Shown here in pieces: positions 2,637-37,775 of a stretch of 64,000 nucleotides of DNA; the first letter of the stretch is position 1, and the number at the start of each line of letters is the position of its first letter. The stretch is from Paracyclopina nana (lineage: Eukaryota > Arthropoda > Copepoda > Cyclopoida > Cyclopettidae), in assembly GCA_019096065.1 (NCBI GenBank), contig JAGUCH010000007.1, positions 2,378,501 to 2,442,500 of the forward strand, written 5' to 3'. The notes beneath the pieces are model-generated. The model was not told the origin of the DNA. It did not search any database and saw nothing but the letters and a program-made list of their open reading frames with translations. A program made the translations under genes and the position numbers.

Positions 2637-3478
2637 GTCTCCGCTAGCCCATCCTCTGGTGTGTCAACAAGTGCAGTATTCGAATAAATCTGGAGTCTGT
2701 TAGCAACTGCGCACCGCACCGTATAGCATACACGCGCTGTCTTAGTTTTGAATCAGGTTTTTCCGAGGACTCGCGTCGATTTGTGTGAGCGTCGTCTCTC
2801 CACAATCCAGCTGCAACACAGCAAATAACGCACTCCCTGAGCTGTTTTAGAGTTCACCGAACTGCTGTCCACTCACCAGACGACAATGGAAGTTGCCCAC
2901 CAACTCTGGAAATAGTTTAGTATGTATGGTAGTCTTTGGAGGTACAACAGCAGATAGTTTGGAGAAAGCTCGATTACTTCCACGGAGAAGTAACACTGCA
3001 TGCGTGCGCGGAGTTGCTGACTACATACAAACTGCCAAATCACGAGATTATTTTGCGACTCAGCTTTTTTGTCCCACGTCCACGTACATTTTTTATTCTG
3101 AATTCGAAAAAACCCGATCACGTTATCTTTAGCTCTCTCGATGCGTGTAACCTTATCACAGATCCATAATTAATCCGATTTCTGCGTATTTGCCTGGTGT
3201 TGTGAACTCGATACTGATTTACGTGGTCGCAGGACGCTCCACCTCTTCTCTTTTTCCTCTTAGCATTTTGACGTTGTCCTTCAAATGGTCTGGCCGAACT
3301 AAGTGCGTACTTTTCAAAGTGTCAATAGAAAATGTCGATTTTATAGAGGCATAAAAAGCTGCTTAAAGTAAAGGCAAAAGCGGAAAAAATATATTCTTAG
3401 CAATTGGCAACAAATATGAGGAAAACGTCGCACTTTGCAGGCATTATAAGTTTTCTCACTTGCCTCAACTACAGCATG
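2637..3478. other. intergenic, divergent promoters
   Basis: Space between the divergent FPPS-like and AKR genes. Only short unconvincing ORFs; no repeat recognised. A 3' splice-site-like ttcttag occurs at 3394-3400. Confidence 0.4.
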
Positions 3479-3494
3479 CATTTTCCCTTTTCAG
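3479..3494 (+). promoter_or_regulatory. 3' splice-site-like sequence just before the AKR start
   Basis: A pyrimidine-rich run ending in CAG (cattttcccttttcag, ending 3494) lies 8 nt before the preferred AKR start codon. It is either the acceptor of a 5' UTR intron or a trans-splice acceptor. It could also make the upstream in-frame ATG at 3416 non-coding. Confidence 0.5.
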
Positions 3495-3502
3495 CTGATT
3501 TG

Positions 3503-4378
3503 ATGTGGCCCGAAAAGGCATTCACCTTGTCTAATGGGGTAAAAATACCGAGCATTGGCCTAGGGACCTTCCGCATTAAAGGCCAAGAGTGTGTGGAGGC
3601 TGCTGTCACTTGTGCATTAGCCGAAGGTTATGGCCTTATCGACACGGCTTCAGTGTACAGAAATGAGGCCTATATCGCAAGCGCCCTAGAGAAATCGACT
3701 GCTCCTGCAAGAAGCCAATTGTTTCTTACATCCAAGCTTGCGCCACGGGACCACGGGACATTAAAGGCCTTGGAAGCCTTCGAGAAAAGCCTTGCCAATT
3801 TACAGACAGACTATCTGGACTTGTACCTCATTCATTGGCCAGGTGTGCACGGGCTCAAGGTGGACGACCCAAATAACCGCATTCTGCGCCAAGAAAGCTG
3901 GGCTGTCCTGGAAAGCCTCTATGAGCAAGGCCGCGTGAAGGCCATTGGTGTGTCCAATTATGGCATTGGACACCTGTCGGAGTTGCTGACTTATTGCAGA
4001 ATTGTGCCTCATGTGAACCAAGTCGAGGTGCATCCTCATTTTCAACAAAAAACCCTTGTTGACTTTTGCCAAAAGGCCGATATCCATATCACGGCCTATA
4101 GCTCCCTCGGGACCACGGTGAAAGCCGAGGAGAATCCTCTATTGAACGACTCACTCGTTAAGTCCATAAGTGAGAAAAATCAGCTAAGCCCTGCCCAAGT
4201 CTTGCTCTTGTGGGCCTTGCAAAAAGGTTACAGTGTTGTGCCCAAAAGTACCAATCCCCTACACATCAAGGAAAACATCTCGGTCTTTGACCATAAATTG
4301 AGTGCAGCCAGCATTGAAGCTCTTGATGCTCTTGACAAGGACTCAAAATACGCTTGGAATCCCGCGAGCGTTATTTAG
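3503..4378 (+). CDS. aldo-keto reductase (AKR superfamily)
   Basis: NADPH-dependent carbonyl reductase of about 291 residues, a normal length for the family. The sequence opens LSNGVKIPSIGLGTFR, followed by the catalytic tetrad: Asp and Tyr in LIDTASVYRNE, Lys in LTSKLAP and His in LIHWPG. Later come GVSNYGIGHL, VNQVEVHPHFQQ, and the coenzyme-binding SVVPKSTNP. Start 3503 was chosen because the downstream sequence matches the usual AKR N-terminus and a strong acceptor-like site lies just upstream; an in-frame ATG at 3416 would add 29 residues. The stop is only 10 nt before the ADAT1 start codon, so the two are probably co-transcribed. The substrate cannot be told from sequence. Confidence 0.92.
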   Translation: MWPEKAFTLSNGVKIPSIGLGTFRIKGQECVEAAVTCALAEGYGLIDTASVYRNEAYIASALEKSTAPARSQLFLTSKLAPRDHGTLKALEAFEKSLANLQTDYLDLYLIHWPGVHGLKVDDPNNRILRQESWAVLESLYEQGRVKAIGVSNYGIGHLSELLTYCRIVPHVNQVEVHPHFQQKTLVDFCQKADIHITAYSSLGTTVKAEENPLLNDSLVKSISEKNQLSPAQVLLLWALQKGYSVVPKSTNPLHIKENISVFDHKLSAASIEALDALDKDSKYAWNPASVI

Positions 4379-4388
4379 TGTACCTAAA

Positions 4389-5498
4389 ATGGACCTTGCA
4401 GATCGCATAGCTCAAGCTGTCATTGACGCCTATGACAAATCATTGCCAAGTAATAGGGGGAAACCGAGCAAAGAGAAAAACGAGTGGACAGTCCTTTCGG
4501 CCTTTCTCCTTGGCCAAAGCGAAGGCCGATTGGAGGTCGTTGCTCTTGGTACTGGTACCAAATGTTTGGGACGCAATGAGACCAGTCCCAAGGGGGACCT
4601 CGTGCACGATAGCCACGCAGAAGTTGTTGCCAAACGGGCTCTAGTTTTGTACTTGATCCACCAGGTTGATGCGTACTTTAAAGGCCAACCTTCAATCATC
4701 GTTAAGGAGGGCGAAGGCGGCCTCGTAAGGCTTTCCCCAGATTGCAACCTTTATTTTTACTCGAGTTTTCCTCCCTGTGGAGATGCCACCATTGCTCCCA
4801 AACAAGAACCAGATAGCAAAAGGCCTCGGCTCGACCTTCACAGAACTGGGGCCAAAACCGACCTTGATACCAAGGAGGAAGGCCAAAAGTACCACGTTGT
4901 GGGTGCAGTGAGGACCAAGCCAGGACGTGGTGATCCCACCAGTTCGTTGTCATGCAGTGACAAGATCGCAAAATGGCTTCAAGTTGGTGTACAAGGCTCG
5001 CTCCTTTCGGCCTTTTTTGCTCGGCCTTTGCTACCGGAAGCCATCGTCGTGGGCAGCTCACAGGCTTCAATTGATTCTCTTCAAAGAGCCTTCTTCGAAA
5101 GATTTGATTTGACCAACATCAAGAATATTAAGATTTGGCTGACCAAAGTCAACTTTCTCAGCAAAGGCCAAGAAGGTCAAATCAGCTGCGATGCAAGTAT
5201 ATTTTGGAACGCGACTGGCAGCCATGGCGTGGTCGTCCTAGGCCGAAAGCAAGGTTGCATTAAGAAACATTTCGGCTCTGACAAAGCCTCCAGTCCAGTG
5301 TGTCGATTGAAAATTGCACGAGTCTTCCTTGTGGCCTTTCAAGGCCAGATTAAAGGCTTGGAAGACCCTCCGCAATACAGTGGCCTTAAGAGTGCTTGCA
5401 TCAAACAATCTCCCTTTTATCTTGATGTCAAGGCAAAAATAGACGCAAAGCTGCGGCAGCCTACCACAAAAATGAAAGATGAATTTTTGGTGTTTTAA
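4389..5498 (+). CDS. ADAT1: tRNA-specific adenosine deaminase 1
   Basis: Deaminates A37 of tRNA-Ala to inosine. Single exon of 369 residues. The deaminase zinc and proton-shuttle motifs are all visible: HAE in DLVHDSHAEVVAKRAL, PCGD in SSFPPCGDATI, and the second zinc Cys in SLSCSDKIAKW. GTGTKCLG in the N-terminal part is also typical of the ADAR/ADAT1 fold. The start ATG lies 10 nt after the AKR stop, and the AG of a splice-acceptor-like TTATTTAG is the AKR stop codon itself. The stop codon is followed after 25 nt by the start of the selenocysteine lyase gene. No promoter-sized space exists on either side, so expression must depend on the upstream gene or on dispersed signals. Confidence 0.95.
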   Translation: MDLADRIAQAVIDAYDKSLPSNRGKPSKEKNEWTVLSAFLLGQSEGRLEVVALGTGTKCLGRNETSPKGDLVHDSHAEVVAKRALVLYLIHQVDAYFKGQPSIIVKEGEGGLVRLSPDCNLYFYSSFPPCGDATIAPKQEPDSKRPRLDLHRTGAKTDLDTKEEGQKYHVVGAVRTKPGRGDPTSSLSCSDKIAKWLQVGVQGSLLSAFFARPLLPEAIVVGSSQASIDSLQRAFFERFDLTNIKNIKIWLTKVNFLSKGQEGQISCDASIFWNATGSHGVVVLGRKQGCIKKHFGSDKASSPVCRLKIARVFLVAFQGQIKGLEDPPQYSGLKSACIKQSPFYLDVKAKIDAKLRQPTTKMKDEFLVF

Positions 5499-5523
5499 CT
5501 CTGCGACATTGCTTTGCAGGAAA
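5499..5523 (+). promoter_or_regulatory. 25-nt intercistronic spacer with acceptor-like TTGCTTTGCAG
   Basis: The whole gap between the ADAT1 stop and the next ATG. It contains a near-consensus 3' splice site ending 4 nt before the ATG. No donor in a suitable position was identified for cis-splicing from an untranslated exon between the genes. Confidence 0.55.
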
Positions 5524-6887
5524 ATGATATTTTTGGATAACAATGCCACGACACAAATGGCTCCAGAGGTCGTGAGCGCAATTCATAATGCATGCGTGAC
5601 TTGTTGGGCCAATCCAAGCTCGAAATACGGACGAGGTCAGGCAGCAAAATTAGAATTGGAGGCTGCGAGGCTCAAAATAGCTCGACTCGTTGATGCTGTT
5701 GGCACAGGAGCAATTGAGGAGCTTATCACTTTTACATCTGGAGGCACCGAAGTATATACGTGCAACTTAGTATAATGCCCAAATAAGATACCAATATGGC
5801 GGTAATTCTTTACTAGGCTAATCACACCATTATGAGATGGGCAATCAAAGCATTTTTCGATCAGAATAAAGAAATCCCTCATGTGATCACATCCAATATC
5901 GAACATGTGGCTACTGAACTTCCCTTAAGAAAATGGGCTGAGCAGGGAAAAATTGGTAACCATACGTCTAAAAACATCATGACTGTGTTTTAAATGTTTC
6001 TTGCTTAGATGTTACTTTTGTTGAGGTTGACAAATCAACTGGCATGACTGATGTCAAGCAAGTTAAGGATGCTATCAAGAGAAACACTTGTCTTGTAAGC
6101 ATAATGGCAGCCAATAATGAGACAGGTGTCATTCAGCCTATTAAGGAAATTGCAAAAATGCTAGAAGTTGTGAATGAGCAAAGATTGAAACAGGGCCTAC
6201 TTCGAATTCTATTGCACACTGATGCTGCTCAAGTCTTTGGGAAAATTCCCTTTTCCATCAAGGAGATCCCCGTGGACTACATCACCATCGTTGGACACAA
6301 GGTGAAGAAATCATAATTGATGCATCTGTGACCAATTTTAATCTTGGAATCATACCTAGTTTTATGGGCCTCGCATAGGTGCGATCTATCACAAAATTGG
6401 CGCTCCCACTCAAGCGCCCCTTTTTTATGGTGGTGGTCAAGAGTACGGTAGAAGGTCTGGAACTGAAAATGTCCCTATGGCTGTTGGCCTTGGGGTGGCT
6501 GCTGACCTTGTGACCTCAGGTCAGCATGAGTCATTCGAAAAGCTCGGTTATCTTCGCGACCTTTTGATTGATAGCTTAAAAAACCTAATCGGCGGCGAAA
6601 ATGTCAAGGTCAATTTTGAGGCTAGTCCCAGGCTACCTAATACGGCCAGCCTCAGCTTTAGGGGAATCACCGATCCTGACAAGCTTCTGGTGGGAGTTGA
6701 GGCTAGCCGATCAGCAGCCTGTCACTCGGTATCCGGGCCAACTTGCTCTAGCATTTTGATCAAGAGTGGCCTCAACATTGAGGACGCCACTTCAACACTG
6801 AGGCTATCGATTGGCCGGTATAATAAAAAGGAGGAAATTTTGTCCGCAGCTGACTCTTTAGCAAAAGCATACAAAGCATCCGTTTAA
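5524..6887 (+). CDS. SCLY: selenocysteine lyase (class V aminotransferase, NifS-like)
   Basis: PLP enzyme that splits selenocysteine to alanine and selenide for selenium recycling; cysteine desulfurase is the alternative within the same fold. Four exons: 5524-5751, 5817-5955, 6009-6301, 6360-6887; phases fit; 395 residues. Recognisable blocks: FLDNNATTQMAPEV, SGGTE, MAANNETGVIQP, LHTDAAQVFGK, the PLP lysine in IVGHK, FYGPRIGAIY, the glycine-rich GGGQE with GTENVPM, and the catalytic Cys in SAACHS. The short tail after the Cys and the VNEQRL segment before LLHTDAAQ fit SCLY rather than the mitochondrial NFS1. It is the third member of the compact trio and converges on the TMED gene 105 nt downstream. 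Confidence 0.9.
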
Positions 6888-8045: not shown

Positions 8046-8416
8046 ATGTATGCCGCATCGAGGGTGCTTTCGATTTTATCCGTGCCTGAGGTGAAAACCA
8101 CCGCGATCCGCCATTATGTGCGTGGATTCTGGGCCAAAAACAACGACTACAAAGGCATTCAAGGTCACGTGCGAAACCCGCCCAAAATGTATGGCTACAC
8201 CCTGGCTTCCCGAAATGTAAGGCTTACTATGTCTTTTGACCGTGCGCTTTAAAAGCATTGTTTTTGTCGTAGCTCGAGAAACGTATTCATCGACCAAGTG
8301 CTATTTTCGAATTGCGTCACTGCAGTTATGACGCCATGATGAAGACCCCAAGCGGACGTATCCGTATGATGAAGAAATACCTCGAAAAGAGCCCGTTTTT
8401 GGCTTGCCCTAACTAG
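8046..8416 (+). CDS. mitochondrial large-subunit protein bL34m-like
   Basis: Two exons, 8046-8216 and 8273-8416, joined in phase 0; 104 residues. The N-terminus is basic and Asp/Glu-poor, as in a mitochondrial presequence. The C-terminal half aligns with bL34m: RPS, then exactly 15 residues, then TPSGRIRMMKKYLEKSPFLA, matching the spacing of the PS and STP[AS]G landmarks in animal bL34m. The very basic stretch and HGW usually found between them is not conserved, so the call rests on the spacing and the end of the protein. The stop is 29 nt before the next start codon on the same strand. Confidence 0.55.

Positions 8417-36605: not shown

Positions 36606-37775
<1,170 letters not shown>

Follow-up and report, generated by a model that had tools for sequence, protein, structure and literature searches.

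The analysed window, a 64,000-nt stretch of the genome of the copepod Paracyclopina nana (assembly GCA_019096065.1, contig JAGUCH010000007.1, positions 2,378,501 to 2,442,500), carries three closely packed genes encoding an aldo-keto reductase (AKR), an ADAT1-like adenosine deaminase and a selenocysteine lyase (SCLY). The cluster may be expressed as a translated polycistronic mRNA of the kind described for stoned and snapin in Drosophila, a reading given a probability of about 0.5. It is favoured by a shortage of in-frame AUG codons in the first two cistrons but not in the third. A more specific proposal is put forward tentatively, namely that all three cistrons share one mRNA and that the two upstream ones, ~2 kb encoding two conserved enzymes, would have been purged of in-frame AUGs for the translation of the third. 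Such a tricistronic animal message could, with the same reserve, extend the stoned/snapin rule in two steps, in an arthropod other than Drosophila.

Gene content and layout of the cluster

AKR, ADAT1 and SCLY are consecutive on the + strand, each in a different reading frame. AKR (3503–4378) is an intronless gene of 291 aa ending in a TAG stop at 4376–4378. The start of ADAT1 (4389–5498; 369 aa, also intronless) follows after a gap of 10 nt (4379–4388), and that of SCLY (5524–6887) after a further gap of 25 nt (5499–5523). SCLY contains introns at 5752–5816, 5956–6008 and 6302–6359 (65, 53, and 58 nt), and its spliced reading is a stop-free protein of 395 aa. A preliminary description of the locus had reported a three-gene cluster with 10- and 25-nt gaps, and its coordinates, gaps and gene identities are all confirmed.

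AKR matches Pfam PF00248 (Aldo_ket_red) at 4e-47, with 161 bits against a gathering score of 24, and also has matches in the PDB. The only Pfam family reported for ADAT1 is PF02137 (A_deamin; 7.9e-58, 196.9 bits), with no double-stranded RNA-binding domain. All nine PDB sequences matched by this protein are ADAR-type deaminases or their fusions, and the TMSCSDK motif of human-type ADAR2 entries aligns with SLSCSDK in the copepod protein. We take the gene to be ADAT1-like on the basis of domain architecture. Class-V aminotransferase pieces are found by Pfam at both ends of the SCLY gene. Its best solved relatives are the selenocysteine lyases 3gzc (271 bits) and 3a9x (269 bits), while cysteine desulfurase structures score 186 bits at best and mitochondrial ones 160–169 bits. 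Among NCBIfam bacterial models NifS scores highest, at 283.5 bits, with no cut-off reached.

Upstream of AKR lies a divergent polyprenyl-synthetase-like gene, which scores under the family cut-off (E 0.0005) and probably starts at 2636, ~0.87 kb from AKR. EMP24 lies downstream in convergent orientation, and its stop is 105 nt from that of SCLY.

The 10- and 25-nt gaps are most simply explained by a single transcription unit. For Drosophila, FlyBase counts 159 pairs of dicistronic genes plus nine larger sets, and the gaps at loci with only polycistronic transcripts range from −34 to 319 nt (PMC4528330), limits within which both gaps of the cluster fall.

Shortage of in-frame AUG codons in the upstream cistrons

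Internal in-frame AUGs are absent from the 290 codons of AKR when the gene is read from 3503, the only start for which this zero is valid. ADAT1 has one in 368 codons (at 5472), and SCLY, the last cistron, has six in 394. Together, the two upstream cistrons comprise 658 codons with a single internal in-frame AUG among them. Thirteen other proteins or protein fragments, with 93 methionines in 4064 residues, would predict 15.1 (Poisson P(≤1) = 5e-6), and 12 relatives of AKR (35/2142) would predict 10.8 (P(≤1) = 2.5e-4). These relatives comprise five of six bacterial loci (L063 was left out) and seven fragments from the copepod's own genome, one of which contains a stop; poly_b, a wrong-frame exon fragment with six stops, was excluded from the final rate calculation. 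At the six alignment columns where at least two AKR relatives have methionine, AKR carries I, S or L. In the four other checked proteins of at least 290 aa (Utp13, actin, RAWUL, and UTP20), every stretch of 290 residues has at least three methionines.

At Drosophila stoned and snapin, translation of the second cistron is reported to be attenuated by in-frame AUGs in the first and to be made possible by their absence (PMC3372440). A shortage confined to in-frame AUGs fits this rule: AKR read from 3503 has no such codon ahead of the next cistron, and ADAT1 has almost none (1/368). The likeness to stoned and snapin therefore lies in the near absence of in-frame AUGs from the upstream cistrons, in a system where those of the first cistron matter for the second. 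Unlike those loci, the copepod cluster has three cistrons, two of them AUG-poor. It resembles the nine tri- and tetracistronic sets of FlyBase (PMC4528330) in having more than two same-strand genes with short gaps. The FlyBase sets are annotated with transcript evidence, the copepod cluster from genome sequence.

The start contexts are gatttgATGT for AKR, cctaaaATGG for ADAT1 and aggaaaATGA for SCLY, that is, weak at 3503, strong at 4389 and with an A at −3 at 5524. These contexts fit the polycistronic reading, unless AKR starts at 3416. Green-algal bicistronic loci described in PMC11892635 similarly combine a weak first start with a stronger second start and few internal AUGs. They differ from the cluster in that its out-of-frame AUGs are undepleted, and the comparison is between an alga and an animal.

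Under the polycistronic reading, a single promoter upstream of AKR would produce one RNA carrying AKR, ADAT1 and SCLY, which would be cis-spliced in SCLY and perhaps also in its 5' untranslated region (5'UTR). At least part of this RNA would leave the nucleus in one piece and its cistrons would be translated in turn, with ribosomes that pass or finish one cistron reaching the next start. It is proposed that the near-complete loss of in-frame AUGs from the upstream cistrons is what lets ribosomes reach the downstream starts. Additional ADAT1 or SCLY messages from internal promoters, or alternative cis-splicing to 5519, would be compatible with this scheme.

Several observations weigh against it. 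The methionine test was conceived after the sequence had been seen and is based on two proteins. With the lowest rate among protein fragments longer than 200 aa (3/267), the expectation falls to 7.4 in-frame AUGs and the joint p is no better than 0.005. Low counts also occur elsewhere: there is one methionine in the 263 residues of the bacterial AKR relative L059, and a 123-aa exon from the polyprenyl-synthetase-like gene lacks the residue altogether. The upstream cistrons show no depletion of out-of-frame AUGs, with seven in AKR against 7.9 ± 1.7 in synonymous permutations and 11 in ADAT1 against 9.6 ± 2.0. Plain leaky scanning would consequently have to pass seven more AUGs before ADAT1, some of them in good context. 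The frame of AKR is also open upstream of 3503, where the segment 3416–3502 (+; ATGs at 3416 and 3476) represents either 5'UTR or an N-terminal extension. Starting at 3416, which has a good context, would give AKR two in-frame AUGs. The best PDB alignment of AKR begins at residue 8, counting from 3503. Lastly, a 104-aa gene that is the first cistron of another tight pair, with NICE-3, has five internal AUGs.

Possible separate overlapping transcription units

Next after the polycistronic mRNA ranks an arrangement of crowded but separate units, which is possible though distinctly less probable. The promoters of ADAT1 and SCLY would lie inside the upstream coding sequence and the upstream messages would end inside the downstream gene, so that polycistronic translation is unneeded. 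Where Drosophila polycistronic loci also yield a monocistronic transcript of the 3' gene, it is in most cases made from a promoter lying downstream (PMC4528330). The neighbourhood of the cluster is compact, given the 105 nt between the SCLY and EMP24 stops and the 29 nt between the 104-aa gene and NICE-3. With this arrangement, a lack of in-frame AUGs in the first two cistrons would not be expected.

Poly(A) signals bear on both sides of the question. Between 3300 and 7000, the + strand has just two copies of AATAAA, which lie within SCLY at 5865 and 6822, leaving none after AKR or ADAT1 before 5865, contrary to what separate units would call for. The variant ATTAAA is present at 3575, 3760 and 5349, inside AKR and ADAT1, and the copy at 5349 could serve a separate upstream message. 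The absence of AATAAA is weak evidence because SCLY itself has none in the ~110 nt scanned past its stop, and EMP24 likewise has none.

Acceptor-like sites before the three starts

The preliminary description had noted acceptor-like sites before each start, and the last letters of the three strings do fall at 3494, 4378 and 5519, at distances of 8, 10 and 4 nt from the respective start codons. Their quality was scored as a YAG with the pyrimidine count at −14 to −5, ending at most 12 nt before an ATG, against a background of 4007 ATGs on both strands of 104 kb around the locus. The string before AKR, TTTTCCCTTTTCAG, has 10 of 10 pyrimidines, equalled or bettered at 0.17% of these ATGs. The proposed ADAT1 acceptor, TTATTTAG (4371–4378, +), consists of the last nucleotides of AKR, TAG stop included, and has 5 of 10 (17.5% of ATGs score as well or better). 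Before SCLY, TTGCTTTGCAG (5509–5519, +) has 7 of 10 (5.8%). Only the AKR acceptor is outstanding, and the sites before ADAT1 and SCLY are unremarkable.

AKR is the first gene, and an ordinary cis-spliced 5'UTR intron would give the same picture there. Four weak donor candidates lie upstream, the nearest being AAA/GTAAAG at 3368, which would define a possible 5'UTR intron at 3368–3494 (+) ending in TTTTCCCTTTTCAG.

Long frames in general do not show clear acceptor enrichment. Among the first ATGs of 75 frames of at least 100 aa, a score of at least 7 occurs within 20 nt in 13%, against 9.5% for all ATGs, but within 12 nt in only 1.3% against 5.8%. The 20 nt ahead of NICE-3, whose neighbour lies 29 nt upstream, contain no YAG, and the same holds for three of five further gene starts inspected.

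Spliced-leader trans-splicing and alternative cis-splicing as less likely readings

The preliminary description had further proposed an operon resolved by spliced-leader (SL) trans-splicing, in which one pre-mRNA is cut into three messages at 3494, 4378 and 5519. The single transcription unit in this claim is favoured by the tight gaps and by the in-frame AUG shortage of the first two cistrons. The SL half is unsupported and now appears improbable, as two of the three acceptors are unremarkable, ATG is not in excess after TTTTCAG and limited searches for an SL RNA were negative. The tight gaps do not require trans-splicing, since Drosophila polycistronic loci are tight and insects are listed among the groups without SL trans-splicing (PMC7986045).

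In favour of the SL model are the strong AKR acceptor and the fair one before SCLY. SL trans-splicing has been reported in calanoid copepods (PMC4664967) and is cited for copepods and amphipods (PMC7986045). The acceptor-like AGs near the starts and the tandem arrangement recall nematode SL-resolved operons and copepod trans-splicing. The cluster differs from those systems in that limited searches yielded no SL RNA, ATG is not enriched after TTTTCAG across the genome and one acceptor is a stop codon. As the proposed ADAT1 acceptor coincides with the AKR stop, an AKR message cut there would keep no 3' untranslated region. The tight pair of the 104-aa gene and NICE-3 has no acceptor.

Genome-wide, occurrences of TTTTCAG-N(0–12)-ATG were compared with the same pattern ending in GTA or AGT, a test of a single acceptor word made without a positive-control genome. 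Within 12 nt after TTTTCAG there are 10794 ATG, 5724 GTA and 8369 AGT. The ATG/GTA ratio is 1.89, as against 2.00 for the reversed controls and 1.98 for a 282-kb sample of DNA counted on both strands. The ATG/AGT ratio is 1.29, as against 1.42 in that sample, the AGT count after TTTTCAG being slightly inflated by a tandem array. By neither ratio is ATG over-represented behind TTTTCAG in the genome. The result counts against an SL that is in wide use and is joined at TTTTCAG acceptors close to the start codon; a system that is rare or of another kind falls outside the test.

A search of the whole genome with Rfam SL1 gave no match at E ≤ 10, with 50 of 27226 first-look candidates scored. The core of the CopepodSL sequence, allowing up to two mismatches, was found at one place, with two mismatches, and the reversed control also gave one. 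A donor plus Sm-site pattern is commoner than its reversed control (166 vs 104 places), a point for the SL model, though the places listed include dispersed repeats. Among the ~100 of 166 places listed, the repeated ones are dispersed, with no tandem cluster. For SL genes linked to 5S ribosomal RNA (rRNA), an Rfam scan of four 5S loci returned only 5S. Sm-like sites were absent from the 5S arrays among 30 of 47 5S loci, with two in the lone copy L009. A 325-bp tandem array contained no SL candidate, and the 2.5 kb of it scanned had no Rfam match up to E 1. The sequence of an SL can be anything, so an unknown leader could escape the searches run.

Two repeat families met in these searches may be described in their own right. 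The tandem array of 325-bp units (L070) lies at G000:C1 ~1141551–1150966. The 5S rRNA arrays (L020, L017, and L010) are of two kinds, one with ~470-bp units containing two diverged 5S copies and the other with ~347-bp units containing one.

Alternative cis-splicing of one capped 5'UTR exon to 3494 or 5519, perhaps also to 4378, would yield separate messages from one promoter without an SL, using the same acceptors and upstream donor candidates such as 3368; it too is improbable, as the donors are mediocre, the ADAT1 acceptor is poor and the in-frame AUG shortage is not predicted.

Common features and origin of AKR and ADAT1

The GGCC tetranucleotide occurs 12 times in AKR and 15 times in ADAT1 (3503–5498, +), against codon-shuffle means of 4.7 and 6.5. 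AAGGCC occurs five and six times, against means of 0.5 and 0.9, counts reached in 0 of 2000 shuffles. SCLY has eight GGCC and no AAGGCC. With their shared lack of introns and excess of GGCC, AKR and ADAT1 look as if they have a common history, a point in favour of the polycistronic reading, and joint intron loss from the two genes is possible.

Two other origins were considered and rejected. The best of the six bacterial relatives of AKR is 41% identical, giving no sign of recent transfer from bacteria. A retro-copy, as a simple duplicate of an intron-bearing parent, is not indicated either. ADAT1 has no close copy in its own genome, where its three other matches are fragments of 33–40% identity, and the 11 other matches of AKR are fragments 31–49% identical.

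Other tight pairs and neighbouring genes

Tight frame pairs gave 13 rows in 104 kb around the locus and five rows in 60 kb elsewhere, some of which involve spurious frames or pair exons of a single gene. Part of these rows was compared with Pfam, and among the frames tested only the AKR-ADAT1 and ADAT1-SCLY pairs consist of two different Pfam-supported genes. The 104-aa gene (8046–8416, +; intron 8217–8272) matches nothing in Pfam at 0.001 or in the PDB at 0.01. It is followed 29 nt later by NICE-3 (8446 on, +). Codon-based gene finding, which predicted no introns in one run and five in another, was dropped, the codon bias being too weak.

Elsewhere in the window, a 158-aa frame at 518–994 (−) has a signal-like start and, by eye, repeated LG(I/L)RIMK(K/R) units with acidic spacers; it looks like a neuropeptide precursor. 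The actin gene at 36645–37775 (+) is intronless, with the whole domain in one open frame. In the genome, 80 matches to Chitin_bind_4, a family typical of arthropod cuticle, agree with an arthropod source. Odorant-binding proteins gave no match, a weak negative since the controls were silent as well.

Significance

An SL-resolved operon would be notable if real, as reports of operons in copepods and amphipods were still lacking according to a 2021 paper (PMC7986045); the evidence leans against it. If the cluster is instead a translated tricistronic message, the production of several proteins from one mRNA, as described for Drosophila, would extend to a further animal. It would also provide a testable rule for searches that use genomes only, in which tight tandem genes are sought whose upstream members are free of in-frame AUGs.

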